Below, in pieces: positions 1 through 64,000 of a stretch of DNA of 64,000 nucleotides (positions are counted from its first letter, which is position 1; each line of letters starts with the position of its first letter). The position numbers and the translations under genes are program-made. Source of the DNA: Phytophthora colocasiae (taxonomy: Eukaryota; Oomycota; Peronosporomycetes; Peronosporales; Peronosporaceae); contig JAGKQI010000090.1 of the NCBI GenBank assembly GCA_018806915.1, positions 2,356,001 through 2,420,000 on the forward strand, given 5' to 3'. Below the pieces are notes generated by a model that did not search any database, was not told the origin of the DNA, and worked only from the letters and a program-made list of their open reading frames with translations.

Positions 1-456
1 TCTTTCAAGCTTGAATCCCGTGGTTTCCAGCGTCCATTCTCGATATCCTTGGCTGAAATCGTCGTAAATGGCTGCGGTGACACACCGGTATCGTTCGTCC
101 AGAAGATCCCGTGGGCGATGTGGTATCTCTGATGGGAATCCATGGTTAAAACCACTTGAGAGAGCTCAGACGTGTGGTTCGAGATGAATGCGGCGATTCG
201 AGCTGCGTCTTCGTTGGCAGTTGGAATCGCCAAAGAACCACCAGGGTGGAAACTCACTTGTTGATCGATTACGAGAATTGCTACTCCACCCGAACGAATC
301 GATCCAGCTCGCTGTGCATCTTCGGTTACGCCATGCTTGATGATATCGTTGTAAATGATCTCGATGGCTGATGGAATAGCTGCTGGGGGATAAAATTGCA
401 GCCTAAAGATTGAGTATCAGAGCTAACCACGTAAGGACTGTAGTGATCTGTGTCAT
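1..456 (-). CDS. Nicotinamidase/isochorismatase-like cysteine hydrolase, 5' part only
   Basis: On the minus strand a reading frame runs off the left window edge and shows the front half of an isochorismatase-fold hydrolase. It has a hydrophobic beta strand ending in the catalytic Asp (VAILVIDQQ), the nicotinamidase-type FHPGGSLAIP loop, and then a strand with LTMDSHQRYHIAH, the histidine-rich metal-binding segment of nicotinamidases. The Lys and the nucleophilic Cys lie outside the window. The ATG at 456 opens a hydrophobic stretch (MTQITTVLTWLALILNL) that looks like a signal peptide, but it ends in TAG and joins the hydrolase frame only through a one-base shift or an unrecognised splice near 402. 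So the start is uncertain, and the gene may be secreted or broken. No copy of this gene is present at the other duplicated loci, so the duplication border lies between it and position 570. Confidence 0.6.
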
Positions 457-689
457 GGCTGGACGGCAGATTGGAAAGTAACAAAAGAGATCTTCTTTTG
501 AAAAGAAGATTCTCTTAGGATAGTTGAGACCTTTCGAACGGGGTAGTGGACAACGAGCCACAGCCGCAGAATGGTTGGATCTTTAGTGTTGGGCAGTGTA
601 GGAATGGAATTAATTTGTTGTTTGATCAGATACGATACAAACGTTAGCTTTAACTACGCTACCGTAGTTTTCTTACTGCGAGTTCTGTC

Positions 690-1211
690 TTACTGTCCGT
701 CTAGTTGGTGCCAGGTAACGACCTCCAAGATGAGGCCGATGGTGAGCAGAACGAGAAAGTTGCTGGTGTCTTGCGTTGTCGCCAAGCCAATGAGGAGGTT
801 TTCACTGGTCAAGTTGGCATCACCGTCGATTTCATGCTCGAATTCTCCATTACTCCTGGAACTTGAGCCAACGTCTTGATCCAAGGAGATCGACGCATTC
901 TCATCGCCAATTGCCGAGCTCAAAGGTGTAGTGAAGTTGCTGTCGAAGTCTTCGAACACATCGCCGTCACTGGACCGATTGTCGTTCCTCGACGCCAGAG
1001 CGTCGATAAAAGCCGCGAAATCCTCGCCTGTATCATTCACTAGAGTAGCGGCGGAGACTTGGGCCAGAAAGGCAGTTGTTACTGGGTCGGATTCGTCCTT
1101 GTCACGTTGGAGAAGGCGATGGATAGAGTTGATGCGATCCTCGTCGACAAGTTCGGCAGCTTCCAACGACACTAGACAGAGTAGAAGGAGGATCTGGACC
1201 ACGTCGTTCAT
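690..1211 (-). CDS. Small secreted Asp/Ser/Asn-rich protein, copy A
   Basis: A 173-aa protein with a clear N-terminal signal peptide (MNDVVQILLLLCLVSLEAAE), then an acidic, Ser/Asn-rich body with several N-glycosylation sequons. Unlike the copies at 7110 and 45,800, it keeps a longer hydrophobic C-terminal tail (FLVLLTIGLILEVVTW), which could be a GPI-anchor signal or a membrane segment. The other two copies have lost about 16 bp at this point and end in RLPGTS. No known domain or RXLR motif was recognised. It lies between the 3' fragment of the oxidoreductase and the window's left edge, in the same relative order as at the other two loci. Function unknown; a cell-surface or secreted role is inferred only from the signal peptide. 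Confidence 0.65.
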   Translation of the reverse strand: MNDVVQILLLLCLVSLEAAELVDEDRINSIHRLLQRDKDESDPVTTAFLAQVSAATLVNDTGEDFAAFIDALASRNDNRSSDGDVFEDFDSNFTTPLSSAIGDENASISLDQDVGSSSRSNGEFEHEIDGDANLTSENLLIGLATTQDTSNFLVLLTIGLILEVVTWHQLDGQ

Positions 1212-1430
1212 GGTAATTTGGATTTTCTTGGGTGGAGGTGGTTTTGTCGGAGCTCTTGCTGGCTACAGGGTGGATTGGAGAATGAACGGTGTGGTGAATT
1301 GTCAGATTTGCTAAAGCGAGAAAGTGCTGCTGTTGTTTAAATATCGGTCGGTTCGTTGGATAGTGGAAATTATCCGAACAATACCAGAAGGATGGAAGTA
1401 TCTCTAGGCAAGAGACTCTAGCTACCTCAA

Positions 1431-1862
1431 TTACGGGAGCTGCACGATGATCTTACCGATGTTCTTGTGCGCGTACATGTGATCGATGGCGTCCGGTACT
1501 TGTTCCAGTCCGTGGAACTCCGTGGGGTCCACGCCAGCGACCAGTTTGCCCTCCTTGATGAGTTTGAAGAGGTTTTCCATGTGCGTCGGGATGATGTCGC
1601 TGTACGTCCGCAACAAGAACCCACGCACTGTAATGGCTTTCATCAGCAGAACCTCATTCATCGCGCTAACAGTGAAAGGTGAGCGTGGTGTATCTCCTCT
1701 GTACTCTGAGATGTGTCCGAAGACAATGATTCGACCACGAATGGCCATGTTGTCGAACACCGTCTTGAACATCTGACCACCGATGGTCTCAAAAGCGATG
1801 TCGATGCCCTTCGGGTACTCTTTTCTTCAGGACTTCTTCGATTTGTAGTTGATCACTCGATT
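1431..1862 (-). pseudogene. 3' fragment of zinc-less quinone oxidoreductase, copy A
   Basis: The last 113 codons match the end of the intact gene at 5908-6909 almost exactly, including the GHISEYRGDTP region and the C-terminal KIIVQLP. Upstream, homology continues about 90 bp, with one extra A in the codons before YPKGID that breaks the frame, and then stops at a point matching about 6470 of the intact gene. The N-terminal substrate domain and the first part of the nucleotide-binding fold are missing, so this is a truncated, inactive copy. The right-arm fragment at 45,190-45,599 stops at the same place, so the truncation predates the inverted duplication. Confidence 0.85.
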
Positions 1863-1945
1863 ACATACGTACAACTTGACCGGTACTCACACCGGTACGA
1901 AAGTGAGCCCCTTTCTTCGAAAGGTACCAATGCTACGAACCTGTT

Positions 1946-2735
1946 ATCCATGTCAACAGTGCTAAGGAAGATCTGCGCGAGAGAATGGAACACCCAGCTC
2001 CATTCGTCGATGAAGATGGAGATCCTTACTGGGGACCTAGCGTCGTTTGTGCTGCCACCACTTGGGAAGACTTCAAGCGATGGCTCAACGTTAACGAAGG
2101 ACGGTTGAGGCGGTGGGACTTTGAGCTCTGGATGATGGCACGAACAGGGGAAGAGTGGTGATCTACAGTCTGCCGTCGTTTGTCCACGAACATGCGTCAG
2201 ATGAAATTCGATCTTCCATCACCACGCAAATACAGATCGCGGGGAACAACATTAATCTCATTGAGACTGTGATAGGTGGACGAGTTACGTGCCAGATTGG
2301 AGATAGTGGCCAAGAACCTGATGCAAGTCTCACCCCTGTGGACCTGGAGGTTGGCGGAGCAGTGCTGGCGGCTTCAGAAAACAACCCGTTCCCAAACGTG
2401 ATTATCGAAGTTGCTTACAAGAACGAAAGCTTAGAGGGCCTTCGAGCCAAACTCCGGCGCTGGATGAGCGACGATACGTCTGTTCAAGTATCAAGATTTT
2501 CCCTGGAGACATGACTGAGCGTCGAGTTGCTATCTTGCATCAGCGTGGTCAGCCGACTCAAGAAGTGGATTTTGGCTATGGCTATCCTCCCGCACCTCCG
2601 CTGACGTTTCCAGTTGGAGCGATTTTTGCTGGTGTCGCTTTACCTGCTGGTTTGAACGGAAACCACCCCATCTCAATTAACCTAGATGACTTGAGGACCG
2701 TTGTCAACATCATTCTTCATAGAAGCAACAATTGA
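1946..2735 (+). pseudogene. Uma2-like (PD-(D/E)XK fold) nuclease family gene, broken, copy 1
   Basis: Reading across frames gives a protein with the segments WLNVNEGRLRRWDF, NNINLIETVIGGRV, then NVIIEVAYKNES followed by a Leu/Arg-rich helix (LEGLRAKLRRWMS) and a Tyr/Pro-rich C-terminus. The E-V-A-Y-x-N-E-S strand with a following K/R helix resembles the restriction-endonuclease-like Uma2/DUF820 fold, which is an inference from pattern. The copy is broken: one base is missing near 2132, and about 11 bases are lost near 2493 relative to the right-arm copy at 44,031-44,860. That copy has different lesions, so the common ancestor was probably intact. Further fragments lie at 12,425-12,840 and 20,476-20,650. 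Confidence 0.6.
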
Positions 2736-2974
2736 GCTGCGGTAACCCAGGTCTCAGCTACGTCCGTGTGTCGGCAACCAGAGATTTCGAAATTTCAGCT
2801 TTTCAACTTTCAGCACAGCAACAACAGCTACAGTAGCGTTTAACATCTCCAAGAAATCTCCATTTTTGCCTTGTGGACTTTCAGAAAAGATTGTTAAGTT
2901 GTAACTTCCAGTAGCAAAATGAAGACAAGCAATTGCTTCAAACCTCTCACAGATTACGCTGCTGCTGCTCGGTC

Positions 2975-3065
2975 GACCCAAGAGCTCGTCTTCCACTCAT
3001 TGACTCACCGTCCACACCAAGCTCTGTACTTAACATGTCTTTCAGGAAGCACAATCCAACGTTCA
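2975..3065 (-). pseudogene. Remnant of a PH-domain gene
   Basis: On the minus strand this stretch is similar to the last PH domain of the large multi-PH gene at about 13,490-13,590. It has the same ACGAGCTCTT..TGG end of the domain, and the LP-x-HVK-x-RA strand is recognisable as LPERHVKYRAW. The frame is interrupted soon after by a stop. It looks like a small scrap of a paralogous PH gene carried in the duplication; the right arm has the same scrap at about 43,562-43,650. Confidence 0.5.
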
Positions 3066-3291
3066 ATTGTCCAAATCGTTAGACTTGACAAAGCGATTTC
3101 ACCATTCGGACTCGAGCTTGTGGTGTCAAATAGATAGTAACGAGAGGCGAACTCAGCCACAATCTTTGTTTCTTCGACAGGTTCATCGTCTCATTCAAGT
3201 TTCATCAAATCTTGAAAATGGTGGACCTCTTACGAAAGCCGTTGATGCTCGTTACTGTGATCACCAGCACTAGCACCCCTCAGCTGGTCGA

Positions 3292-3648
3292 CCATGCATG
3301 ACTGGATTGCAGGATGGATTTGAATTCTGTGGTCGAGGGTGAATCACGCGTCACCACGTCATCCAGACGGAGACCTGGAACTTCCTTTAAAGCTGCGATG
3401 CGTTCCCGAGTTTTCGACTGCTGACAGGTCTCGATCAGAGTGGGAGACGCACCATGCACTAACCGGTAGAGAGCATGTCACGTTGATCCTCCGTTGTTGA
3501 GCCGGCTGAAGTCCGTCCCACGCCATGATCGGGTGGTCGTTTTCGACCGGCACTACACTGCAGTTGATCTTTCAAAGCTTTGCTGTCTGTGGTGCCGTCC
3601 AGCTGCACTCTCGCAGTCTTCCTTCACGCCATACTAGAGCGGCCGATG
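3292..3648 (-). pseudogene. Degenerate left-arm copy of a hypothetical ORF
   Basis: This is the counterpart of the open 122-codon ORF at 42,986-43,354. Here the second sense codon after the ATG context is TGA, and a further stop falls in the middle of the reading frame. The left arm therefore does not encode the product. No domain was recognised in either copy. The rest of 3066-3960 shows no other supportable gene. Confidence 0.35.
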
Positions 3649-4080
3649 ACATGACGATCATCTGACAGGCCGTCGCTACGCCGGACAAGCTGTTTGAGAG
3701 GAGCCATTCGACCGTATGGACGTGCGGCCGACACACGTGATTTCGTGTGCAATGCTCGCTGAGTCAACGCGCTGGTGGTCACGGTGGTCGCCACGTACAA
3801 AGGATCCTTTCTTTCCTGTCACCCGGCCGTCAAAACCACTTCACCGAGCCCGGCACTGCACATCCAGGTGGCGTTGGCATTCCAGATTGGAGAGAGGAGA
3901 CCTCAAGTAATTCGTCTCGAGACGACGGGACGAAGCGGACGTCGCTCCTTTATGCCGCCGCTCTAGGTTAGGCATTGTCTTGCTGCCTCATTCAGGGCGA
4001 GTCACGTCAACTTGCACTTTCGAAAATCACTGAGCGACGTCGCATCTGCAGCTTCAGGAAGACCCCGACCATCAAATACG

Positions 4081-5190
4081 ATGCAACCGTGGACGCCGCC
4101 GGAGAACACCATCGTTCTCACTGACCTGCTACGGTCTCAACCTCAAAGAGATGCCGTCTTTGTTAAACCGGAGCCGGAATTCGTGACGTCCCGACCGAGT
4201 TTCATCGACCTGCCACCTCTGCTTCCTTCTCGCCTCCCAGCTATCTCGGACGTGCTGAGAAGCACCAGTCCACAGCAGCGGCGATACCAGAAGAGCACGT
4301 TCGTATCAGCTCCTCAATACTCCGAGACTCCGACGTACTCTGCTGCATTTATGAGTACGTGAACTCTAAGTTGATCATGTCTTCTTCTCGTCTAACAACA
4401 CCTTTTTCCCTGTTTTTGCAGCTCGACCGAATGCTACAGACTACAGCAACCGCGGTGACTCCGTTATGCCAAGCCTACCAACGCCTACGAGCTCGTACGC
4501 TGTAGTTTCAGGGGATATGACGCCTCCAGGCCTTGTAGGTACTGTACTAGAACTTATCCTATTAGTACGCCCAGTCCTCAAACTGCCCGACCAGCAAGCC
4601 GAACGTGCAGATACACTGGCTGCACCCACTACGTGGTCGATCACGGACTCTGCGTCCGCCATGGAGTACGTTTGCTGTGTTACTCTTCACTTTTAGCTTC
4701 ATGTCTGACTTTGCTGTCTCTTTAGGGTGGGAAACGATGCACTGCTGACGGTTGCAGCAGTCGAGCCAAGCACTTTGGTCGCTGCTGGAAGCATGGTATG
4801 TCTCATTCTGTTTTCGTTTCTTTGATGTTAGCTAACCAGTTGATTCTTTCAGGCGGATCGATGGAGTGCAAGGCTCCGGGTTGTTCCAACCGAGCTAAAT
4901 CTCGTGGCTACTGCTGGTCTCATGGCGGCGGTACTAAGTGTAAAACGGGAGACTGCGATAAGATCGCTATCTCGAACGGTTTGTGCTGGGCTCATGGTGG
5001 TGGTAAGTTATCTGCTGTGTATTCTTCGAAGTGGGAAGTGTGTATGCTAATTTGCTACGTTTTTCTAGGTAAACGATGCATCGTCCAAGGGTGCCAGAAG
5101 CAGGCATATGAACGTACGAAAAACTACTGCAACAGCCACTACCAGCAGTACCAAGAGAGTGCGATCGCAATTACTCGGCATCAAAACTAA
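4081..5190 (+). pseudogene. C-x3-GC/HGGG zinc-finger gene, left copy with exon 2 frameshift
   Basis: Five exons can be read: 4081-4354, 4422-4665, 4726-4795, 4853-5002 and 5069-5190, separated by 57-67 bp GT-AG introns. The C-terminal half has five tandem units of the form C-x3-GC-x(7)-G-x-C-x2-HGG (for example CKAPGCSNRAKSRGYC), an oomycete-rich class often labelled WRKY19-like zinc finger. The N-terminal exon is Pro/Ser-rich. Compared with the right-arm copy, exon 2 has five extra bases near 4548. They shift the frame before the zinc fingers, so this copy should not make the full protein unless splicing differs. Such proteins are presumed nuclear regulators; that role is inference. Confidence 0.7.
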
Positions 5191-5827
5191 ACGACTTCGT
5201 TGAGTTATTTATTCGGTGGGTTTCGAGCTCGAGCTGAGGACGTTCTACGTGGAGTTCTCGCAAAGGCTTTTGCAGGATCATCACGCAAGAGCTGAGACCA
5301 CATCTTTTGAGGAATCACCGAAAAGGTGGTGCTGCTCGAGGGTAAAGGACGTTGCCTTTTGGACAGACGAGTGTAGTAAACGACGTATATTAAAAGTTTC
5401 GCACCAACGCAATTGTTGATCGGAGTTGTAAGTACGTGTACATGCAGTAGGAAAGATTTATTGGCTCGGCATGTAAAGGAATTGCAGGGGCATTTTTCAG
5501 AAACGAGTTCTGCTATTCTAGTTGTATGTAACTTAAGCACTGGTCAATCTCATGCTGATGAGCAGTATCACTTTACGAAGTCCATTCCTCTCTAGCCAAC
5601 CCGACAAATCAATTCAACCGATATGCAGCTGAAACACGTCCAGCATGCCAAAAGCAATGGGGTTGTAAGCCCATGATAGCCAAGCTAGAGATTGTTCGAC
5701 TGAAAACCGCAACGTCATCTTCTTGATTTTAGCCAATCCTGACATTTAGCCAAACGGCTAAATTCATTCATTGGTCCACACATTGTCACGAGGTGTTACT
5801 CGACACGAATTAGTTCGCGTCATCAAG
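5191..5827. other. Gene-free duplicated tail with the empty hAT site
   Basis: No coding region is supportable here. The stretch matches the reverse complement of 41,320-41,440 followed by 34,750-35,215. The two right-arm pieces are separated by the 6.1-kb hAT insertion, so 5301-5325 here is the uninterrupted site. A CATGCTGATGA motif near 5550 is repeated in the right arm (34,905-34,960), which has an extra short repeat unit. Confidence 0.75.
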
Positions 5828-5907
5828 ATGGCATGGAATACTACCAATGCTTGTCAAAGTCTCTACTTCACAATTCAATCCGCCATCCCCCCACAACAAC
5901 AACCATA

Positions 5908-6909
5908 ATGCCCAGCTACCGTGAACTTCTGTGCACCAAACTTTCCACCAATTTCCGTGAGGCCACGGAAATCGTCACCCACCAGGAGCTACCGAAGGCA
6001 AGAACCGGTCACATTGTGGTAAAGAACAAATTTCTGGGCATCAACGCCACGGATATCAATGTGACCAACGGGGTCTTCAACGAGAACCCTCCCCCTTTCG
6101 GCACAGGACTGGATGCAGCTGGAACTGTAGTCGAAGTCGGTCAGGGTGTCACTCAGGTCAAGGTTGGGGACTACGTTGTGTACGACAAGTTCGGAGCTTA
6201 TGCTGAGTACGTGGAAGTTCCCATCGGATCTGTGCACAAACTTCCTGAACTGTCTCCAGCTGCTCTCCCCTTGACGGTATGCGGTATTTCTGCGTCGATT
6301 GCCATTAAGGAGTGTGGTGAACTCAAAACCAACGAGACGGTGTTCGTCACGGCTGCAGCTGGAGGCGCTGGGCAATTCGTAGTGCAACTCGCCAAAATGG
6401 CAGGAAACCACGTCATTGGCACGTGCAGCAGCGACAACAAAGCTGAATACCTCAAGAAACTCGGCTGTGATCGGGTGATCAACTACAACAAGGAGAATAT
6501 CGATCAAGTCCTGAAGAAAGAGTACCCGAAGGGCATCGACATCGCTTTTGAGACCATCGGTGGTCAGATGTTCAAGACGGTGTTCGACAACATGGCCATT
6601 CGTGGTCGAATCATTGTCTTCGGACACATCTCAGAGTACAGAGGTGATACCCCACGCTCACCTTTCACTGTTAGCGCGATGAATGAGGTTCTGCTGATGA
6701 AAGCCATTACGGTGCGTGGGTTCTTGTTGCGGACGTACAGCGACATCATCCCGACGCACATGGAAAATCTCTTCAAGTTCATCAAGGAGGGGAAACTAGT
6801 CGCTGGCGTGGACCCCACGGAGTTCCACGGACTGGAACAGGTCCCGGACGCCATCGATCACATGTACGCGCACAAGAACATCGGCAAGATCATCGTGCAG
6901 CTCCCGTAA
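5908..6909 (+). CDS. Zinc-less quinone oxidoreductase / PTGR3-ZADH2-like MDR enzyme
   Basis: A 333-aa medium-chain dehydrogenase/reductase without zinc-binding cysteines. The N-terminal GroES-like domain (NKFLGINATDINVTNG, GLDAAGTVVEVG) is followed by the nucleotide-binding AAAGGAGQFVVQLAK loop at about residue 150 and the GHISEYRGDTP segment typical of the ZADH2/prostaglandin reductase 3 branch. Members reduce alpha,beta-unsaturated ketones or quinones with NADPH; the exact substrate is unknown. I chose the ATG at 5908 rather than those at 5828 and 5833. The protein family starts here, and an initiator-like TTCACAATTCAATCC lies at 5867-5881, so the earlier ATGs would be outside the transcript. 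Two 3' fragments of this gene lie at 1431 and 45,190. Confidence 0.88.
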   Translation: MPSYRELLCTKLSTNFREATEIVTHQELPKARTGHIVVKNKFLGINATDINVTNGVFNENPPPFGTGLDAAGTVVEVGQGVTQVKVGDYVVYDKFGAYAEYVEVPIGSVHKLPELSPAALPLTVCGISASIAIKECGELKTNETVFVTAAAGGAGQFVVQLAKMAGNHVIGTCSSDNKAEYLKKLGCDRVINYNKENIDQVLKKEYPKGIDIAFETIGGQMFKTVFDNMAIRGRIIVFGHISEYRGDTPRSPFTVSAMNEVLLMKAITVRGFLLRTYSDIIPTHMENLFKFIKEGKLVAGVDPTEFHGLEQVPDAIDHMYAHKNIGKIIVQLP

Positions 6910-7033
6910 TTGAGTTTGGTAGCAACGCAGCCATTTCGTTTTTTTCTCGAGAATTTCCACTATCAAAAGAGAACAAGACACGTTGAAATGAAGCACTTTC
7001 TCGCTTTAGCAAATCTGACAATTCACCACACCG

Positions 7034-7048
7034 TTCATTTTCCAATCC
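7034..7048 (+). promoter_or_regulatory. Oomycete-type initiator
   Basis: TTCATTTTCCAATCC fits the oomycete Inr/flanking consensus (YTCATTYY-N-CAATTT-like) and lies about 60 bp before the ATG at 7110. The same sequence precedes the copy at 45,800. Confidence 0.55.
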
Positions 7049-7109
7049 ACCCTGTAGCCAGCAAGAGTTCCGACAAAATCACCTCCAACCAAGAAAATCC
7101 AACTTTACC

Positions 7110-7616
7110 ATGAACGACGTGGTCCAGATCCTCCTTCTGCTCTGTCTAGTGTCGTTGGAAGCTGCCGGGCTTGTCGACGAGGATCGCATCAACTCTATCC
7201 ATCGCCTTCTCCAACGTGACAAGGACGAATCCGACCCAGTAACAACTACCTTTCTGGCCCAAATCTCCGCAGCTGCTCTAGTGAATGATACAGGCGAGGA
7301 TTTCGCGGCTTTTGTCGATGCTCTAGCGGCAAATGCGTCGACGAGGAACGACAATTGGTCCAGTGACGGCAATGTGTTCGAAGACTTCGAGAGCAACTTC
7401 ACTACAGCTTTGAGCTCGGCAATTGACGATGAGAATGCGTCGATCTCCTTGGATCAAGACGTTGGCGCAAGTTCCGGCAGTAATGGAGAATTGGAGCACG
7501 AAATCGACGGTGACGCCAACTTGACCAGTGAAAACCTCCCCATCGGCTTGGCGACAACGCAAGACACCAGCAACTTCCTCGTTCTGCTAACGATCAGGTT
7601 ACCTGGTACCAGCTAG
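7110..7616 (+). CDS. Small secreted Asp/Ser/Asn-rich protein, copy B
   Basis: A 168-aa protein with the signal peptide MNDVVQILLLLCLVSLEAAG, an acidic body rich in Asp, Ser and Asn, and several sequons (NDT, NAS, NFT, NLT). The C-terminus is FLVLLTIRLPGTS. A deletion of about 16 bp relative to copy A (690-1211) has changed the frame at the end and shortened the hydrophobic tail, so a GPI or membrane anchor that copy A may have is lost here. Copy C at 45,800 carries the same deletion, so B and C share a more recent ancestor. No known effector motif was found. Confidence 0.75.
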   Translation: MNDVVQILLLLCLVSLEAAGLVDEDRINSIHRLLQRDKDESDPVTTTFLAQISAAALVNDTGEDFAAFVDALAANASTRNDNWSSDGNVFEDFESNFTTALSSAIDDENASISLDQDVGASSGSNGELEHEIDGDANLTSENLPIGLATTQDTSNFLVLLTIRLPGTS

Positions 7617-7819
7617 ACGGACAGTAAGACAGAACTCGCAGTAAGAAAACTACGGTAGCGTAGTTAAAGCCAACGTTTGTATTGTATATGATCAAACCGC
7701 CAAGTTAATTCCATTCCACCACGGTTTTAATGATAAAGATACTGAAACAAATGCGAAATCCCTGAACACATACGTTTCGTTTGTACATTGATGTCACTTA
7801 GCTATGCTAACGACTTCCT

Positions 7820-8116
7820 ATGTCCGTTCTAGTGTTCGCCCCTATGTCGACCACTAGCCTTCATCCCGGCCAGAGCTACTCTCCGCCGTTACCCGGTGTC
7901 AACCCCATCGAGTTGACCAAAAAGTGCCGCTTGGGAATTGTCCACGATGTTGTCTCGGATCGTAGCTCCATCATTGTCCGCTCAGTGAGTGACATCCGGT
8001 ACGAACTTCGCTTTTGCAAAACCTCTCAAAGTCGGTTGGTGTACTCGAAATCCGGCCGCTGGTACTCGGAATTAGACTATGCTGTGTCCTTCATACAGAA
8101 CTTAGCTTGGAAATAG
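7820..8116 (+). CDS. Hypothetical 98-aa protein
   Basis: An open frame from an ATG codes for a small, fairly basic protein (YSPPLPGVNPIELTKKCRLG early, YELRFCKTSQSRLVYSKSG late). I do not recognise it. The duplicate at 46,510-46,791 is nearly identical up to the last dozen codons, where small indels change the frame, so the C-terminus is not conserved. It ends about 100 bp before the initiator of the Crinkler-like gene and could be a separate small gene or a remnant. Confidence 0.35.
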   Translation: MSVLVFAPMSTTSLHPGQSYSPPLPGVNPIELTKKCRLGIVHDVVSDRSSIIVRSVSDIRYELRFCKTSQSRLVYSKSGRWYSELDYAVSFIQNLAWK

Positions 8117-8222
8117 TGTCCGTCTCATTTTAATTGAGCTTTCACAGTAACCGGCCAAAATCTCTGGTAGTGAAAGGGTTGAAAAACCTCAGTTTTTCCT
8201 TCTTGGCCAGAAGTTCTTTCTG

Positions 8223-8239
8223 TCATTCTGTCATTTGTC
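8223..8239 (+). promoter_or_regulatory. Initiator of the Crinkler-like gene
   Basis: TCATTCTGTCATTTGTC is a close match to the oomycete initiator plus downstream element and sits 17 bp before the ATG at 8256. It rules against starting translation further upstream at the in-frame TTG at 8235. Confidence 0.6.
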
Positions 8240-8255
8240 GTGTCGAAGAGAAGCA

Positions 8256-10247
8256 ATGAATCGAAAGTGGTACGAGCTGGTGGGTGAGGATGGCAATGCG
8301 TTGACGTCGGTCAACTACGTCGCACTGCCAGACGATGCGATGGTTGTTGATATGCGGAAGGCGGTGTTTGCAGAAGTCTCTTGCAATCTCCCTGCGAATG
8401 TCATATCGCCCGACCTAACGGTTTTTGCGAACAGAGCAGCATTTGCGGCAAAGCAGAAGTTGGAAGTGGATTCTCCGATCAATTTGCTCGGTGGATCGAA
8501 GAAGGAAGCGCTCATTGTGCAAGTGCAGCAGCGTCGAGCGGCTATTACCATCGATATACCCCAAGTCAACTGGACTGTCGCTCCTAAACCGTGCCCTCAG
8601 CTCCTCGTTAGAGATGACGATCAACTGATTGAATTGCCACCATCTTACGTCAGTGGTACCGGAATTGGTCGCCGTGATCAGGCGCTGATCCTCTATCGTC
8701 GGCCACCTCTGGTGAAGCAATGGAATGAGATCAACAGGTGCTCAATCCAAACGTATGCGCTTCTTTGGATTGTCGGTTTACCTGGAACGGGAAAGTCATG
8801 CGCAGCGTTCGCCTTCGCTTGCTCACTTGATCGATCGCGCTGGGACGTGATTTGGATTCACTACTCGCGAATTAAAGAACATTTTAATTGTGTTTGGCTT
8901 CAGGGTAATCAGAAAGTGGTTTGCGTTGTGAAGGAGAATACGCTAGAGCGTGATCTAGCAGCCATCTTGAATACGACGTCGCAGACAAGGAAAACGATTG
9001 TATTCCTGGATGGGTATGTCAATTCATCTGCAGCTGTAGAGGCAGCTCATCTCAAGTGCCTACGTTGGCATCAACAAGACAAAATCAAGCATCGACTAGT
9101 GTGTGTTTGCTCGATGGTTTCTCTCGGAAAAGAATATCGACCAGAACTTTACAATCAGATTCCGGCGAAAGTGGATGAGGAGTCACGGGACTGTGAAATG
9201 GAGGATGTGGAGATGTCGGCTGGAGAATTACACAATCTGGAGGTGGTACATGAACAGGAGCTGTTTGAGCTGACATCATGGTGCTTTGATGATTACAAGA
9301 AGGCAGTCCTCAACGACGATTTCTTTCGTAATGTAGCGGCCATGTTTCCTACACAGTCTGATCCAGAAAAGGAAGCGACGGAGCGAACCAAGTTGTTGCA
9401 AGAGAAGTACTTTATTGCCGGTGGAAGCGCTAGACTCATGTTTGAAACTTCGACAGAGCAGGCAAGTGAAGCACTCGACATAGCAATCAGGTTTACAACT
9501 CCAAACATTGAGCTTTACCTTCAAGGCTTTGTTGCCGATTCGTCATCTGGTGCTGTCAACCGTTTACTTGCATGGTATGACGGTCCCAGTGGTTACGATG
9601 TTCGATTGGTGAGCGAGTACGTCGTGCGTCATTTTGCAATGGTCATGGGTCCGCGTCTAGTCGAGAATTTCGCGAGGGCTTGCAATGTTAATCCATCCAT
9701 GGATGGGTTTATCCTTAAGGCTTGGTTTTTTGCCCATCTAAGCCATAATGGCCTGGCGTGGAGCCGGCGTGTGGGGGGAGATACAGTAGAACACCAGAGC
9801 TGGGAGAAATCATCCATCTTCATTATTAATCCAGCCAAGTATCCGATTGCTGTTTCATTGGATGGTCCGGTGTGGATGGCTCCAAAGAAGTGGAACCAAG
9901 GCGGATACGATGCTGTTTTTATCGACAAAGCAGCACAACTTGTTCGGTTTGTTCAAGTGACGCGTGCTGAGTCCCATAAGTTCGACCCAAAACACTTCGT
10001 CGAGCTCTTGAACAGCCTCGTCGCTGGTGATCTGGAGAAAGTTGCTGTGGTTGAAATGTGTTTTGTCGTCCCAATGGCTCGGCTGGAAACGTTCAGGTTA
10101 CCAGTGAGCACGGAAGACTTCAAGAAGATCGTTGTGGGAGTTACTTCGTCGCCATCGCGAGCTACTCGGAGTTGTCCCGATCAAACATTCAAAGCTTGCA
10201 GTGCAAACGTCATTGCCATCGGAGTTGAGTGCCGGGCATTTTTTTAG
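8256..10247 (+). CDS. Crinkler (CRN)-family protein: ubiquitin-like header, P-loop NTPase, REase-like C-terminus
   Basis: A 663-aa single-exon protein. Residues 1 to about 90 (MNRKWYELVGEDG to LGGSKKEALIVQV) match the header domain of one large oomycete Crinkler class. A Walker A motif GLPGTGKS lies at residues 174-181, with a Walker B-like IVFLDGY downstream. The C-terminal region has GGYDAVFID and LVRFVQVTRAESH near residues 549-570, the restriction-endonuclease-fold signature of CRN NTPase/nuclease proteins. Family members act inside host cells, often in the nucleus; there is no classical signal peptide. The last codons (CRAFF) differ from the copy ending at 53,444, whose tail is longer, so this C-terminus may be slightly truncated. 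The second copy is split by a PiggyBac element. Confidence 0.85.
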   Translation: MNRKWYELVGEDGNALTSVNYVALPDDAMVVDMRKAVFAEVSCNLPANVISPDLTVFANRAAFAAKQKLEVDSPINLLGGSKKEALIVQVQQRRAAITIDIPQVNWTVAPKPCPQLLVRDDDQLIELPPSYVSGTGIGRRDQALILYRRPPLVKQWNEINRCSIQTYALLWIVGLPGTGKSCAAFAFACSLDRSRWDVIWIHYSRIKEHFNCVWLQGNQKVVCVVKENTLERDLAAILNTTSQTRKTIVFLDGYVNSSAAVEAAHLKCLRWHQQDKIKHRLVCVCSMVSLGKEYRPELYNQIPAKVDEESRDCEMEDVEMSAGELHNLEVVHEQELFELTSWCFDDYKKAVLNDDFFRNVAAMFPTQSDPEKEATERTKLLQEKYFIAGGSARLMFETSTEQASEALDIAIRFTTPNIELYLQGFVADSSSGAVNRLLAWYDGPSGYDVRLVSEYVVRHFAMVMGPRLVENFARACNVNPSMDGFILKAWFFAHLSHNGLAWSRRVGGDTVEHQSWEKSSIFIINPAKYPIAVSLDGPVWMAPKKWNQGGYDAVFIDKAAQLVRFVQVTRAESHKFDPKHFVELLNSLVAGDLEKVAVVEMCFVVPMARLETFRLPVSTEDFKKIVVGVTSSPSRATRSCPDQTFKACSANVIAIGVECRAFF

Positions 10248-57082: not shown

Positions 57083-59864
57083 TTAGACTCTGGGATGATC
57101 GTCTCCAGCCTGCATCGCCTGAAAACGGGCTCGTGCTCGTGCACTCTGGTTGAATTCGTAAAGTAATGCTCCACAGTTCAACTTCGATAACGGCAACCAC
57201 TCAGTTTCATCGTAACCTTTCCACTTAATCAAATATTCGCGCAGGCGTCTGGACGTCCTGGTACGCTTGTTCCAGCGGGTATCCAGAATCTTCTCCACTT
57301 CATACTCGCCGTTTTCAATATCAGGTTCCCAACTATCTTCTGGTAACAGGGCGGCGTCAAAATCATCATCTTCTGGAATCTGGAGTTCCACCGTGGGTCG
57401 TCTGGGGAACAGAGCCCTTGGCTTCAGACGGCTCACATGGACCCAGGGGTTCACGCGGTAGCCGGTATCTTCAACCTTGAGTCGTACTCTGAAATCGTCC
57501 AGCATCTCCTCGATCCTGAAGGGTCCGTGCCACATGTGTGCTAGCTTTCTGCTCAATCCCGTTTGTACCTTAGGGATGTAGAGCCATACAGCGTCGCCTA
57601 TAGCGAAACCTGACTTCAGGCGCTCTGATAACTCGTTCCACTTTCTGGTCTGTTCTTCAGACCGGTCACGCTTTGCCTTCTTCTGGAGATCTCCGGCACA
57701 TGCCAGAGCATAGCTATAGTCTCGTTGCATCTTCCGTCTCCATTCGTACGCAGTTCGCTCCTGAGTCGTCGATGGCTTGGGTCCAAGCATAGCGGACACC
57801 GTCCCATGAGCATCCCCCCCAACCATGTACCAGGTAGAAAGGCGTCTCCAGACGGGTGGCATCGAATGACGTGTTCAGGGCAAACATCAGACGTTCGGCG
57901 TGATCATCCCAGTCACTTTGATCAGCTTCAGAGATATATGCCTTAATCGCGCGCACCACAGTCTGTACTGATCTCTCCTGCTGGCCGTTGGCTTGAGGCC
58001 GGTACCCTAGAGTAGCTCGTTGTCTGCTACCCAAAAGTTCCCTGAAACACTTGAACACCTCACTCATAAAGCGAGGATCTTGATCATGACGAATCAGAGA
58101 GCTAGCACCAAAGTTTCTGAAAACGCGTTCCTCATAAGCCTCTGCTACATCCTGAGCAGTGGTGACACTCATTGGCTTGCACATTACGTATCCCGAAAAC
58201 ATATCCTGGAACAGCAAGAGAAATGTGTTTCCACGTGCGGATTTCGGCATGTGGGTCACAAAATCCATAGACACCACTTCAAATGGCCGGCTGGGCTCAA
58301 TATTTCCAGGGGACGGTCCAGGATTTGGGGGTCGCCCCTTGCCACTGGCACAGTCTACGCATTCCTTCACAAATCTCTCCACAGCGGCATACATACCCAA
58401 CCAGTAATATTCCGAACTCAACTTCTCAAAGGTTCTCCTGATTCCTTGATGTCCACCTTGGTAGTCTTCATGAGCATAGTGTAACAAGTCTGGATACAAG
58501 TCTCTGGGAACCACCAGTCTGAGTTCGTCAACATTGTCCCGGGGCCGCTCTCGAGTAGCGCGGCTCAGGCGATATAGTACATCTCTAGAATCCAGAACGA
58601 AATCCTCAGCAACTCTGGCAAGCTTCCTGACTCGGGGTCGTGGTAAATCTCCCACGTCACCTTTCAGAAACTTCATGAGTTCAACCAAGTACGGGTCCTG
58701 GCTCTGATGCGCCTTGATCCGTCGCCAGCGTTCTGCCTGGAACTCCAAAGGCCCCAAAGGTTCTCGTTCGTCATCGCCCTCAGGCAGATTAGCGTCAGGC
58801 GGAGCTTGGGCACGGGTTACAGCAATCAACACACTGACCGATCGAGGTAGGGGTGCGGATTCCGGATCAAAAACATTCTCAGACTCTGGTGACGCATTAT
58901 GATTTTCAGAGTCTGATATTTTTGACTCTTGAGCTTTCATGTCCGGGGCTGAGCAAGGCTTCATCAGTTTCTCATGAACTTTGGATACCAGTTGCAAGTG
59001 TATAAGTTCATCCTCGTCTTGCACCTGCCAAGCTTCCCCAAGAGTCAAAGTCTTCGAGGTCAGGTAATCCGCTGCTTGGTTAAACTCGCGCTTCACATGC
59101 ACCAACTTCAGAATCCGAAACTTGGTTTTCAGAGACTCAAATTCGGCCAACCTCCGTTGCAAGTTAGGCTGATTGCAGTTGATTAGTCCCTGAGCCTGTT
59201 GTATCGCGATGCGCGAATCTCCCACAACCACCAACTCCTGTACTCCGTGGTCGAGTGCCATCTTCAGACCATAATTCAGGCCACAGTATTCCGAGTCATT
59301 CACCGTGACATCCGTCAGGGGAAACCCTCGGGCTTCCAGAACGCTCCACCCCGGGAGTTCCCAGAGTATACACCCACAGCTTCCCAGACGGGTAGACGTC
59401 TTTGCGGCACCATCAAAACTCAGAACATAGCCCTGATAATCTGCTTCCAGCATTTCCACACTGATAGGAACTGGCGGCTTGACTCGCCCCTTGACTGGGA
59501 TCAGATTTTCAGAGACTTCGTCCAGATGCTCCCTGGAAGTAATGCCTGCACCGAGTATAGCTGGGAGTCCATCTTCATCACGCTGAATCCGGCGAATCTC
59601 TAAGTTCCACTGTGACAACTTCAGACCCCACTTGACATTCCTGCCGTCGGTGGAGCTCGATGTTAACAACCATTTCAGGACAGAGTATCTAGTATAGACC
59701 ACAATCACCGGACTTGACTCCACCAGAGCTCTGAAGTTTTCCAAAACTCTGAGGATCGCAATCACCTCTTTCTCAGCGATATGATACCTGAGTTCGGCAT
59801 CGTTCAGGACACGACCCGTAAACCGGACTGGGTGTATTATTCCCTCATATTCTTGTCCCAAGAC
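57083..59864 (-). pseudogene. G1 pol: RNase H, second RNase H, integrase, chromodomain; 5'-truncated
   Basis: The minus strand begins inside the RT-linked RNase H (AELRYHIAEKEVIAIL) where G2's LTR cuts it. A second, independent RNase H follows (VLSFDGAAKTS, DSEYCGLNYGLKMAL, VVGDSRIAIQ), then the integrase zinc finger (HEDYQGGHQGIRR...CVDCASGKG). The catalytic core shows SMDFVTHMP, RHDQDPRF and NGQQERSVQ. The frame shifts at a run of seven G (about 57,815) just after FYLVHGW; a GPY/F-like segment (MWHGPFRIEE) and a chromodomain (YEVEKILDTRW, YLIKWKGYDETEW) follow in the new frame. The protein is therefore inactive as it stands. Confidence 0.85.
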
Positions 59865-60324
59865 TGTAATAGGTCTACCTAGACCTATTAGGTGGCGTAC
59901 ACGCGCGCTTAGGTATATGAGGAAGCGTGCAATTAGAATAGACTTAATTTAAGTATACTTATTTAAATAAGTATAATTAAATCAAATATAACTAAATTAA
60001 ACTGCAAAATACCGTAAAATGAGAACTGTTATTGAATTTGGCATAAGCCAATTATGGACCTCCTAAAAATGTTTGTTATCTATTTCTAAAGGGTCTGCCA
60101 ACGTGTGGTTGGCAGAAACTCTGCTCAGTGATTGGTAGAAATCCGTTACTTTCTACCAATAATATGCACAAATGCACACGAACCATCCAATAATGTGGTT
60201 CGCCCATGTATCCTTTGGTGTGTACAGCACACCAAGGTCTGAGGCCCATTTCCAACCTCTAACAGTTATCCTAACTGTTAGAGTTACAAGTGGTACAACC
60301 ACTTGTACGTGTAACCCCGTTACA
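59865..60324 (-). repeat. 3' LTR of G2
   Basis: 460 bp, starting TGTAACGGGG and ending CCTATTACA on the minus strand (TG...CA ends), with a polypurine tract directly upstream. Its left edge interrupts the G1 pol frame at 59,864. It contains several hairpins, including an arm of 12 bp at 60,257-60,283 and one of 11 bp at 60,131-60,160. Confidence 0.85.
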
Positions 60325-60338
60325 CCATCCCCCCGTTA
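60325..60338 (-). other. Polypurine tract of G2
   Basis: On the minus strand TAACGGGGGGATGG abuts the LTR start, as expected for the plus-strand primer of an LTR retrotransposon. Confidence 0.75.
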
Positions 60339-60425
60339 AGATTCGACGTATCGGTCTCGATACGTCAATCAACAGAACTTGACAAGACCGTCAAGTTCCC
60401 AAGAGAAATCCGAGTTCATTTCGCA

Positions 60426-61967
60426 ATGGACTCGCCAACGCCCACGTCTCCGTCCGCTACTGCGGACGCGCAAGCCTCACCTGCTGCCTCTGCAGCAGGA
60501 ACAACGACCTCAGCAGTGCTCACTAGCACTGCTGCTTCCAGCAGTCCGACAGAGAAGCTCTCTGTCACCAAGTACCATGCTCTCCATAAGGAGAAGCATG
60601 AGAAGAAGAAGAAGTCTTCTTCTCTAGCAGAGATTAAGAATCCTGCTGTCCCTCTCAAAGAACTCTTTGGAGAGGACTACGAAGACATCCTTGACTATGA
60701 TGACGACGATGTCGAGGAGGGAGAGCTTGACGCCAAGGCTCCCGCTCCCGTGTCTTCGTCCGAAGACACGTCAGACCCACCCGTGGGATCTCGACGACCT
60801 CGTGATGAGGCCTCGGACGCTTCAAGCTCGAAGCGTCCGCGCAGTGATGATGAAGCGTCCCCCATGTCGAGGGCGCTCACTGCCCCGCGCACTGATCCGC
60901 CAGTGCGCACACCATGGATACCTACTGAGGCAGAAATCCATGACCGGTTCGGTGCTAGTTCACCACCGAACCCGATACTGTTGTACTCATGCAACAGTAT
61001 CAACGACGACGACGTCGCCGCTAAGGTTGTCTTTGAGTCCGAGACTCAAAGACGCGACTACTATATCGGGCTCTTCCACGACTATGCAGCGAAGAAGACT
61101 TCGCGCAAGAGCAAAGTGCCAGAGTGGCAGGCACTTTGTCAGTCGTGGAACGCCTTTGTTGATAACTTCAACAAAGACCCGAAGGCATATCGCGATCGCG
61201 TTGCTGCGGCTCGCGATCGCTACTACACTTACACTACACGTGGTAAGTGTGAACGCCTCCATGATCAGTCCATGGAAGCGGGGATCCCATGTGCCGTTCC
61301 CTTTGGCACACCCTGTCCGTGTTGCCCACCCTTGGCAACACGCCTTACCGAAAGTGATCTCCTGGGGTACACGGTCGTCCGTGTACCCGATCACATCAAG
61401 GAGCTCCGTGGTCGTATTGTGCCACGCGAAGCTCCGAGTGCTGTGGCTGACCGCAGCACTCCTCGTGCAGGGTTTAACCCTGCAAGTTATGGTGGGCTTC
61501 GTACGCCCTCACCATTTCCGGAACGTCCTCCATCAGGACGTTCCGCGGCTCCCATGTATCTCGATGGGGAGGAAATCCTCTCCAACGAATACGAAAACGA
61601 ACCCCTTGAGAGTTCGTTCTCTTATGAGCCACGATCCGCTCCACAATCCAGCGGATCGCTCCACGCGCGTCGCGCAACGGCGGCGGAGGGGGTGGGAACA
61701 CTCCCTCCGCATGGTCAACGCTATGACCATGACGATCGTGCCCTGCACGATCGAGTTGCTGCGCTGGAGCAGACACAGAGCGCTGAGATAGCGGCTCTGA
61801 AGCAGGAGGTTCGTGTCCTCCGTGCTGAGGTCTGCGAGGCAGCTCAGACTGCCTCGAACCTCTCGTCCGGTCTTGGGACGAGAGTGAACCAGTTGATCGA
61901 CCATGTCGACGGTCTCGAGAAGGCCTTCCAGGCCTCTCGCACTCCTCAGTCGGACTACCAACCCTAG
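60426..61967 (+). CDS. Antisense ORF of G2, overlaps the end of pol
   Basis: A 513-aa ORF from ATG 60,426. The Ser/Thr/Ala-rich N-terminus is followed by a basic stretch (KEKHEKKKK), an acidic one (DYDDDDVEEGELD), and a compact central region (RRDYYIGLFHDYAAKK, WQALCQSWNAFVDNF). A Cys-containing stretch (PCAVPFGTPCPCCPP) and a C-terminal coiled coil (AALKQEVRVLRAEV) complete it. No similarity to the G1 antisense ORF is visible. The last 494 bp are also coding for the GPY/F-linker and chromodomain end of pol on the other strand. It is open for 1.5 kb although packed with hairpins. Function unknown. Confidence 0.7.
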   Translation: MDSPTPTSPSATADAQASPAASAAGTTTSAVLTSTAASSSPTEKLSVTKYHALHKEKHEKKKKSSSLAEIKNPAVPLKELFGEDYEDILDYDDDDVEEGELDAKAPAPVSSSEDTSDPPVGSRRPRDEASDASSSKRPRSDDEASPMSRALTAPRTDPPVRTPWIPTEAEIHDRFGASSPPNPILLYSCNSINDDDVAAKVVFESETQRRDYYIGLFHDYAAKKTSRKSKVPEWQALCQSWNAFVDNFNKDPKAYRDRVAAARDRYYTYTTRGKCERLHDQSMEAGIPCAVPFGTPCPCCPPLATRLTESDLLGYTVVRVPDHIKELRGRIVPREAPSAVADRSTPRAGFNPASYGGLRTPSPFPERPPSGRSAAPMYLDGEEILSNEYENEPLESSFSYEPRSAPQSSGSLHARRATAAEGVGTLPPHGQRYDHDDRALHDRVAALEQTQSAEIAALKQEVRVLRAEVCEAAQTASNLSSGLGTRVNQLIDHVDGLEKAFQASRTPQSDYQP

Positions 61968-64000
61968 GTAGTCCGTGCTGCACGTACGGCTTCAACCGCC
62001 CGACGTAGAAGGTCGGGTGGAGCCTCATGCTGGACGGTATGTCCAGCCGGTACGCGTTGCCGTGCCGTTCAAGTACTTTGAACGGCCCAATGAATCTTGG
62101 AGCAGGCTTGCTTGCTCCAAAGTCAGACACTGCATGTCTAGGTAGGTTTTGTGTAGCTAACAAAACTAATGAACCCTTTTCGAATTCATTTGTGTTGCCT
62201 CTACCAACAGTATCAGCGTTCAGCTTCTGTCGATCGACAGAAGCTGCGATAGCATCCTGGACAAACCGTATGACGGCTTGTCTTCGCTGGACAAAGTCTA
62301 GCGCACCCGAGCTGAATCCTTTCAGCTTGTCGCCCTTGTCAGCAGCAGGCCCTGCCTGCTCGCTATCATCTCTCATGTCTGTGCCCGGCACAGACATCGC
62401 GCGCTCGTTCCTGCTCGAACGAGACGTCGCACGCGTCACCGCAGCTGATAGTGTGCTGCTATCAGTTGCATTCTGCGGTTGTTCGGACGCAACCGTAGAT
62501 CCTCCCCCACTTAAGGAGGAAGCTACCCCGCCGAGCATGCTCGGCAATCGTGGATGCCTCATGGCATTCACGTAGAACGGTGTATGCCCTGTCGAGTCAT
62601 GCACCGAGTTGTTGATGGCAAATTCTGCCATCGGCAAGCACTCGCTCCAATGCGGGAACGAGTGAGCGTAGCTCTTCAGCGTGTCACCCAGTACGCGGTT
62701 GACACGTTCGGTCTGTCCGTCCGTCTGCGGATGATCCGCAGTCGACATTGACAATTGTGAACCAAGAAGTGTAAACACTTCTTGCCAGAACCGCGCTGTG
62801 AAGCGTGGATCACGGTCCGACACAATGTCGAGCGGCATGCCATGGTGTTTGAACACCATGTCAACAAACAGTCGCGCAGTCTGCGCGGCTGTAACAGTAG
62901 CCGGGACGGCAGCAAGATGAACCATCTTGCTGAATCTGTCCACAAAGACAACGATGCCCGTCCTCCGCTTGCTGTCAGGCGGAAGACCGAAGACAAAGTC
63001 CATGGACATGGACTGCCAACACTCCGACGGAGTCGGTAGTGATTGAAGAGGAGCCTGCGAGAACTGCGCAGGCTTCACGCGTTGACAAACCTCGCAAGCA
63101 CGGACGTACTTGCGCACCCACTTGTACTGGTGGTGCCAGTAGAAGTCACGCGTGAGAAGAGTGTATGTCTTCTCACGCCCCGGATGCCCTGCCGTGGGGG
63201 CATCGTGATACTCGAACATGATCCTCAACCGGAGGTCATGATCATTCGGAACGACAATGCGATCCGCATTGTCGTCTACTGCACTGTACAACAGTAGGCC
63301 TTCGTGTACACGATAGCGGTGTACACGAGCTCGAAGATGAGGGGTTAGCTTCCGACGTGCCACGTCGGAAGGTGCTGCGAGGAACTCCAGCAGCCCCTTC
63401 GCGTCTGCATCCCTTGCATACGCGTTCTTCACGTCGTCAATCAACGTTGACGACGGCACACTTGTCCTCACGACGCCAACGCTGTTGGCGTCGACCGTCT
63501 CCGCATAGTCAGGTCGACGCGTTATCGCGTCGGCCACTACATTGAGTCTTCCGGGTTTGTACTCCACCCGGAAGTTGTACTCCGCGAAGAAGGACAACCA
63601 TCTCGCCATACGTTGCGAGATGTGCGGCGACTTAATCGCCGTACGCAATGATGCGTGGTCTGTATAGACCACGAACGGTCTACTCCCAAGTAGATACACT
63701 CGGAACTTTGCGAGTGCATACTTCATGGCAAGGAGCTCCTTGTCATGTACGGGATAGTTACGCTCAGCTGGCTTCAGCTGACGCGATTGATAGTAGACTA
63801 CACGATCACGCCCTTCGTGATCGTGTTGCATCAATGCACATCCGATTGCAAAGTCGGATGCATCGCACACTACGTGGAATGGACGATCTTGGTCCGCCAC
63901 GGCCAAGATCGGCGCTTCAGTCAAGCCCTGTTTGACTGCACCGAATGCCTCCTCGCACTCGGTCGTCCAAATCCACTCAGCTTCTTTCTTAAGAAGCTGT
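61474..64000 (-). CDS. G2 pol: RT thumb, RNase H, integrase, chromodomain; 5' end outside window
   Basis: Open from the window edge to the stop at 61,474, 842 codons. It starts in the RT thumb (FGAVKQGLTEAPIL). RNase H has VVCDASDFAIG, the KELLA Glu and YTDHASL. The integrase zinc finger reads HDAPTAGHPGREK...CEVCQR. The catalytic core has MDFVFGLP, DRDPRF and DGQTERVNR, the D, D and E of the DDE triad. A GPF-type segment (FIGPFKVLERHGNAYRLD) and a chromodomain (WIVERIVAHKR...FRIRWRGFPPHRDTWEP) end the protein. No lesion was found in this part. Its sequence carries dense short inverted repeats. Confidence 0.92.
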   Translation of the reverse strand, partial: QLLKKEAEWIWTTECEEAFGAVKQGLTEAPILAVADQDRPFHVVCDASDFAIGCALMQHDHEGRDRVVYYQSRQLKPAERNYPVHDKELLAMKYALAKFRVYLLGSRPFVVYTDHASLRTAIKSPHISQRMARWLSFFAEYNFRVEYKPGRLNVVADAITRRPDYAETVDANSVGVVRTSVPSSTLIDDVKNAYARDADAKGLLEFLAAPSDVARRKLTPHLRARVHRYRVHEGLLLYSAVDDNADRIVVPNDHDLRLRIMFEYHDAPTAGHPGREKTYTLLTRDFYWHHQYKWVRKYVRACEVCQRVKPAQFSQAPLQSLPTPSECWQSMSMDFVFGLPPDSKRRTGIVVFVDRFSKMVHLAAVPATVTAAQTARLFVDMVFKHHGMPLDIVSDRDPRFTARFWQEVFTLLGSQLSMSTADHPQTDGQTERVNRVLGDTLKSYAHSFPHWSECLPMAEFAINNSVHDSTGHTPFYVNAMRHPRLPSMLGGVASSLSGGGSTVASEQPQNATDSSTLSAAVTRATSRSSRNERAMSVPGTDMRDDSEQAGPAADKGDKLKGFSSGALDFVQRRQAVIRFVQDAIAASVDRQKLNADTVGRGNTNEFEKGSLVLLATQNLPRHAVSDFGASKPAPRFIGPFKVLERHGNAYRLDIPSSMRLHPTFYVGRLKPYVQHGLPRVGSPTEECERPGRPSRDRRHGRSTGSLSSQDRTRGSRQSELPRRPQHGGHEPPASEPLSQRSVSAPAQQLDRAGHDRHGHSVDHAEGVFPPPPPPLRDARGAIRWIVERIVAHKRTNSQGVRFRIRWRGFPPHRDTWEPRNVLMEDVPEMVRAYEAHHNLQG

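Follow-up and report, generated by a model that had tools for sequence, protein, structure and literature searches.

G2, a long terminal repeat (LTR) retrotransposon of the oomycete Phytophthora colocasiae, can fold back on itself locally about every 50 bases along its full 8-kb length, through the LTR, gag, pol and an open reading frame (ORF) that runs antisense to these genes. The element lies at the end of a stretch of 64,000 nucleotides (nt) from contig JAGKQI010000090.1 (assembly GCA_018806915.1, positions 2,356,001 to 2,420,000), which is called the window here and whose coordinates are used unless another sequence is named. The window holds G2 from position 59865 onward and its end falls inside the element; the full-length G2 of 7,997 bp occupies positions 365-8361 of sequence L009. 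In the 4,136 bp within the window (59865-64000), 42 perfect inverted repeats with arms of at least 9 bp and loops of 0-10 nt were found, 41 of them non-overlapping, and this hairpin field, assigned to neither strand, extends to the far end of the element outside the window. An earlier note, made from the sequence alone, had drawn attention to the density of perfect inverted repeats, which is real, but its count of 22 was too low.

When loops of 0-12 nt were allowed, the same part of G2 gave 43 stems with arms of at least 9 bp, compared with a mean of 0.24 (maximum 3) in 100 dinucleotide shuffles; at arms of at least 8 bp there were 60 stems versus 0.78 in 60 dinucleotide shuffles. The density of stems with arms of at least 9 bp is 10.4 per kb in this part of the element and 0.17 per kb in the rest of the window, whose remaining 59,864 bases contain 10 such stems. 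Across 500-bp stretches taken in steps of 250 bp, the number of stems with arms of at least 7 bp reaches at most 3 outside G2 and is never below 6 within it. The part of the flanking Gypsy element G1 at 57714-59861 has zero stems with arms of at least 8 bp. That G1 and the host genes lack the feature had been claimed by eye in the earlier note, and the counts bear it out.

The complete element carries 91 perfect stems with arms of at least 9 bp. With arms of at least 7 bp and loops of up to 20 nt, it contains 153 non-overlapping stems at a mean centre spacing of 52 nt, and stems plus loops make up 44% of its length; each of 16 consecutive 500-bp bins holds 7 to 13 stems. Arm length has its mode at 9 bp (46 of the 153 stems) and exceeds 11 bp in just 4, whereas shuffled sequences fall off steadily. 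Loops range from 0 to 16 nt, and 114 of the 153 measure 3-10 nt. The landmarks singled out in the earlier note were recovered: five stems stand end to end across the border between LTR and leader (60257-60398), an exact 26-bp perfect palindrome lies inside pol (62221-62246), and the dense run at 63300-64000 has 18 non-overlapping stems with arms of at least 6 bp, where about sixteen had been estimated. The palindrome has an exact opposite-strand match in 37 of 40 scored genome copies. A single repeated motif as the source of the stems was rejected, since the arm sequences differ from one another, as the note had also remarked.

Computed folding agrees with the stem counts. In 200-nt windows of G2, RNAfold z-scores lie between -2.7 and -11.8 on the plus strand (20/20 windows) and between -3.2 and -10.6 on the minus strand (20/20), averaging about -6 on both strands, while control windows outside G2 (20 per strand) have mean z-scores of -0.38 and 0.08. 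In the sense-strand folds, 83% of the pairs span 40 nt or less in G2, versus 56% in the controls.

The coding sequences were then shuffled synonymously, 300 times per region, with protein and codon counts preserved, and stems with arms of at least 9 bp were counted. Pol retained 0.25 stems versus 18 observed, the antisense ORF 0.19 versus 13, gag 0.10 versus 6 and the protease region 0.37 versus 24. Codon choice is thus bent for the stems, as had been proposed, and protein sequence is no explanation for them, because synonymous shuffling removes them and the LTR has them too. A few stems do sit on palindrome-prone peptides, for example SKM...HLA, but dinucleotide and synonymous shuffles erase the signal almost wholly, so chance, composition and codon usage are refuted as the main cause, and only a negligible chance remains that composition, codon usage or protein sequence gave rise to the hairpins as a side effect.

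Stem variation among G2 copies and related elements

The alignment of the left 4.1 kb of G2 comprised the window copy and all 25 retrieved copies (26 sequences, pairwise 1.1-6.6% apart). For the right part, a length filter retained 14 of 20 copies and removed the other 6. A column entered the variant counts if at least 12 copies could be read there. Of the columns of the left alignment, 26.1% lie in stems. Variants private to one copy fall inside stems in 23.2% of cases (137/590), those found in 2-3 copies in 14.0% (23/164) and those in 4 or more copies in 10.0% (12/120); private and shared variants differ in the share that lies in stems at p=1.3e-4 (26 copies). This depletion of shared variants with near-proportional private variants is the pattern of constraint while the element is active and decay after insertion. 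On the branch leading to copies L029 and L030, 11 of 95 fixed differences fall in stems of the other copies, compared with about 31 expected, and 9 further differences lie in stems present only in L029. Among 677 pairs, 6 were altered on both sides with the pair kept, five of them in at least 2 copies.

Ten other pol regions of this genome were hand-picked from 300 listed places, and six of them are related to G2 (L035-L040; 51-60% tblastn identity), forming three families: L035, L036 with L037, and L038-L040. L035-L037 have 11-16 stems with arms of at least 7 bp in 2 kb, versus 1.5-2.7 expected, and L038-L040 have 4-5 versus about 1.5; the mean folding z lies between -0.55 and -2.4 in all six. 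The four unrelated Gypsy regions (three without a G2 pol match, one with a match at 21%) have 1-2 stems and z of -0.19 to 0.74. Hairpin enrichment is therefore graded, being weaker in the sampled sister families and absent from the sampled unrelated Gypsy elements. We also observed that L038-L040 have few perfect stems yet a folding z of about -2; the G2 lineage may generally fold more than expected, with G2 itself as the extreme.

Two longer sister copies, L045 and L046, are 95% alike, and L045 is 96% identical to L035. They contain 11 and 14 stems with arms of at least 9 bp in 5.7 kb, compared with 0.4 and 0.25. Between L036 and L037 (85% identity) 13 of 20 stems are kept, counted from both sides. 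At 65% identity, L035 and L036 keep 8 of 28 stems, four of them with pair-preserving double changes, and share 3 stem centres versus 0.3 by rotation (p=0.003). A G2 stem with arms of 10 bp at 62910-62932, partly set by the integrase peptide SKM...HLA, has its centre coinciding in families L035 and L036.

Stem retention at greater distances was approached through proteins: for homologous proteins, we asked whether the substituted residues can still form the G2 stem under the best choice of codons. Two controls were used: the substitutions that these homologues carry away from stems, and decoys, meaning stems absent from G2 that recoding would allow it to form. The best 120 of 507 listed homologues were used for the antisense ORF and the best 120 of 2,697 for pol. 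Among pol relatives of at least 70% identity (87 homologues) the pairability excess is 0.043 for 23 stems, compared with 0.003 in the 87 decoys (p=0.0001). With the 120 homologues of the antisense ORF it is 0.045 for 17 stems, compared with 0.009 in 48 decoys (p=0.011). Since the homologues are not independent, these p-values, taken per stem, are approximate. In a version with slid decoys, the pol group below 70% and the antisense-ORF group at or above 70% did not stand out. The test points indirectly to the proteins of related elements in other Phytophthora keeping G2 pairing potential better than matched decoys.

Architecture of G2 and the antisense ORF

G2 is a high-copy, young chromodomain Ty3/Gypsy LTR retrotransposon. 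Its two LTRs of 460 bp are 99.8% identical; their ends, in plus-strand orientation, are TGTAAT...GTTACA. The target-site duplication AAGAC flanks the element on both sides. The 3' LTR lies at 59865-60324 on the minus strand, with its partner at L009:7902-8361; a purine run adjoins it on the coding strand (60325-60334, minus strand) and resembles a polypurine tract, as which it may serve. The C-terminal part of pol (61474-63999, minus strand) comprises RNase H, integrase, an SH3-like domain and a chromodomain. Over the whole element, Pfam families above the cut-off on the minus strand are, in order, Retrotrans_gag, zf-CCHC, RVP_2, RVT_1, RT_RNaseH, Integrase_H2C2, rve and Chromo, which corresponds to a coding order of gag with zinc knuckle, protease, reverse transcriptase (RT), RNase H, integrase, SH3-like domain and chromodomain. 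Paired TG...CA LTRs with a target duplication, together with the order gag-protease-RT-RNase H-integrase-chromodomain, place G2 in the chromodomain Ty3/Gypsy group. The pol frame, described earlier as open, is indeed open within the window but is broken into separate frames beyond it in this copy; longer open pol frames were seen in other copies.

The genome search gave 937 first-look candidates for G2 copies, of which 40 were scored and match a 2-kb query at 97-100%. About 300 bp near L009 position 5721, beyond the window, are absent from the window copy and present in most other long copies; in copy L012 this segment has 4 stems with arms of at least 8 bp (13 per kb). By eye, G2 is nested in G1 and splits the RT/RNase H region of that element, the flanking parts being window positions 57714-59861 and L009 8362-10000. 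Like the Chronos elements described in the literature, G1 has an additional RNase H domain (RVT_3). Rfam at gathering score gave 0 matches in L009, no tRNA was detected in G2, and no G2 relatives were found in the viral and bacterial/archaeal collections searched. One protein, P0232, which aligns to 64% of the G2 pol query at 77% identity, is filed as Aeromonas veronii on a 1,189-base contig; the record is probably oomycete contamination.

The antisense ORF (60426-61967, plus strand, 513 aa) lies between pol and the 3' LTR and overlaps pol tail to tail by 494 bp (61474-61967). It is free of internal stops in 65 of 84 scored genome matches. Identity to the 120 listed homologues of its protein is 42-86% across the aligned region, and every listed homologue with a named organism comes from a Phytophthora species. 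No Pfam family was found above the cut-off. The predicted model, of low confidence (mean predicted local distance difference test score, pLDDT, 57), has a helical middle and a C-terminal coiled coil, and no fold match in PDB was found for it at E 0.001. Cysteine C289 is invariant among 28 aligned sequences. Sister families have long frames opposite and downstream of pol as well, such as L045 86-1664 (plus strand) and the opposite-strand frames at about 2015-4050 of the adjacent stretches L040 and L047. Of the L040 frames opposite and downstream of pol, one overlaps pol by about 600 bp and has a coiled-coil-like end. Such ends recur among the antisense frames of the sister families, whose similarity to the G2 antisense protein is marginal (best E 0.015). 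These comparisons suggest an antisense gene that is old but fast-changing.

Explanations for the hairpins

We consider it probable, at roughly 60%, that the whole G2 genome has been selected for local folding into short hairpins. Stems that are conserved with compensatory changes, at a density above that of shuffled sequence, favour such selection. Strand-symmetric structural selection fits the perfect pairing on both strands, the lack of a preference for wobble pairs, the favoured arm length and the finding that inherited variants in stems are lost and not converted. The nucleic-acid genome of G2 would then form a string of short local hairpins with stems mostly of 7-11 bp, and the level of action would be RNA. 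Since the plus-strand ORF requires an antisense transcript, the need to code on both strands makes antisense RNA likely. Local folding during transcription would keep both the genomic RNA and the antisense transcript closed upon themselves, and self-closed sense, antisense and small RNAs would anneal poorly. Stems of about one helical turn are below the length of typical Dicer substrates, and those of G2 would stay too short to resemble long double-stranded RNA. That the benefit lies in keeping sense, antisense and small RNAs from annealing is a tentative proposal about function. The fuller picture is likewise speculative, namely that a retrotransposon coding on both strands has become a chain of roughly one-turn hairpins, equally stable in sense and antisense, as a defence against duplex formation and silencing, and that arm co-evolution has maintained it across Phytophthora.

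Several observations weigh against selection for folding or against its proposed benefit. On the branch to copies L031 and L034, 6 of 30 fixed differences fall in stems versus 9.8 expected, which is no clear depletion, although five of the six preserve the pair. When sites are split by class, first and second codon positions show significant depletion (p=0.0009), and third codon positions (p=0.23), LTR and leader (p=0.10) and the overlap (p=0.59), each taken alone, do not. Arms also sit on slightly more conserved residues (0.557 vs 0.507 and 0.752 vs 0.740). Given these two results, protein constraint may add to the depletion of stem variants. Selection on the genomic RNA strand alone should favour the A-C class as read on the plus strand; the stems with one mismatch in at least half of the copies comprise 14 G-T, 12 A-C (as read on plus) and 12 others, the share of sense G-U among them being 0.27-0.67 at 95%, so no G-U tolerance particular to the genomic RNA strand was found. 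G2 loops are purine-rich on the coding strand (59.1% vs 52.4%, p=0.003), and this is not repeated in the sister sequences L045, L046, L036 and L037. The 33 pol homologues below 70% identity gave no pairability signal (p=0.34). Of the stem centres shared by L035 and L036, one (SKM...HLA) and perhaps another lie on palindrome-prone peptides. Between G2 and L035-L038 (57-61% nucleotide identity) centre agreement is no better than rotation; with stems kept between L036 and L037, this means that individual stems last for some time and are then replaced, and it is the tendency to carry stems that persists. The expectation of the earlier note that stems be conserved or co-vary in other copies is accordingly borne out among G2 copies, with some compensatory change, and in the near families, but not for the G2 centres in L035-L038. 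The L040 family has long antisense frames yet few stems (9 vs 4.9), so the antisense ORF alone is no explanation of the hairpins, and the idea that it forces them by itself is weakened. As to silencing, transposable elements are reported to be the main source of the 25/26-nt small RNAs of Phytophthora, and relative to length the most small RNA comes from inverted and tandem repeats (PMC3804510). In maize transposons, miRNA-like folds are linked to more small RNAs (PMC10760457). If short stems also feed small-RNA production, the anti-silencing benefit would fail.

The causes put forward in the earlier note were selection for a folded RNA or single-stranded DNA, of which selection is what the data favour, snap-back perfecting of quasi-palindromes, which fits less well, and dsRNA-like structure that might interact with silencing. 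In snap-back perfecting, RT would return onto one arm and copy it, repeatedly perfecting imperfect palindromes, so that the hairpins would be a by-product of replication. We regard this as unlikely, though it has points in its favour. The stems are Watson-Crick perfect with G-T and A-C mismatches about equal, as DNA copying would give; they are alike in the LTR, both coding strands and spacers; and double transversions (A-T to C-G and C-G to G-C) account for two of the six compensatory pairs. Moreover, one stem is perfect in L030 and L031 and imperfect in the window copy through two changes in one arm only. This kind of change accounts for 2 of 10 gain/loss listings, both from one stem, but in the other 8 both arms have changed (a small set, not polarised). 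Unbiased copying should also yield conversions about equal to reversions, whereas the variants outside stems predict about 75-88 shared variants within them, 35 were seen, and only 6 of these restore the pair. Copying with random end points would not be expected to give arm lengths with a mode of 9 and a ceiling near 11. The proteins of other species retain pairability, though copying could do likewise.

Selection might instead act on DNA, through hairpins in single-stranded cDNA or through cruciforms that affect RT pausing or strand transfer, integration, or chromatin and recombination. The similar folding excess on both strands and the lack of a G-U preference would suit this explanation, but loops of 3-10 nt are the commonest and short looped cruciforms are costly in duplex DNA, and we judge it quite unlikely. 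Distributed hairpins that bind Gag, each stem-loop helping particle assembly, would fit the spacing of the stems, about one every 50 nt across the full genome with the LTR included; the loops, however, run from 0 to 16 nt, and inspection by eye, with no motif search made, showed no motif common to them, and this proposal appears improbable. Selection of the G2 genome for local folding is the reading we retain. G2 is an extreme case of a mobile element whose coding sequence conveys, over its entire length, a further message in its structure, and in such elements base pairing may partly direct how the proteins evolve. The 937 candidates and the graded sister families offer a natural experiment on the uses of pervasive RNA structure, among which silencing escape, packaging, reverse transcription and strand separation could be probed.

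Relation to known systems

Plant Tat-type elements have a conserved opposite-strand ORF between pol and the 3' LTR, and G2 likewise has an antisense ORF near its 3' LTR. They differ in that the G2 antisense protein has no Pfam family above the cut-off, and we know of no hairpins of the G2 kind from Tat-type elements. Some RNA viruses have genome-scale ordered RNA structure (GORS), and in these, as in leviviral genomes, folding energy lies well below that of shuffled sequence along the coding genome, giving structure that is pervasive and not confined to a few fixed motifs. G2 also folds below shuffled sequence throughout (z of -2.7 or lower in 40/40 sampled windows, 20 per strand), but it is an LTR retrotransposon, and its short local stems are unusually perfect and equally present on both strands.

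With the oomycete chromodomain Ty3/Gypsy elements, G2 has in common the LTRs, the 5-bp target duplication, the zinc-knuckle gag, the order protease-RT-RNase H-integrase and the chromodomain. Dense hairpins over the full length are the feature of G2, and the sampled unrelated elements have none. Chronos, as described in PMC5348765, is like G2 an oomycete Ty3/Gypsy element with a chromodomain; it has an additional plant-type RNase H, which was not found in the five G2 ORFs (Pfam, E 0.1). The main text of that paper contains no word beginning with hairpin, palindrom or antisense. No description of a hairpin-tiled retrotransposon was found in the literature, as covered by titles and abstracts, with most subscription papers outside that coverage. 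Local RNA structure occurs in maize transposons as in G2, but there it takes the form of pre-miRNA-like regions (PMC10760457), while G2 has short stems everywhere. The genomic RNA of Ty3, also a Ty3/Gypsy element, is folded too, and a palindrome in it has been proposed to serve dimerisation; according to PMC11381356, its well-folded core covers about 20% of the sequence and its 5' end contains six palindromes, whereas in G2 stems and loops cover 44% of the length.

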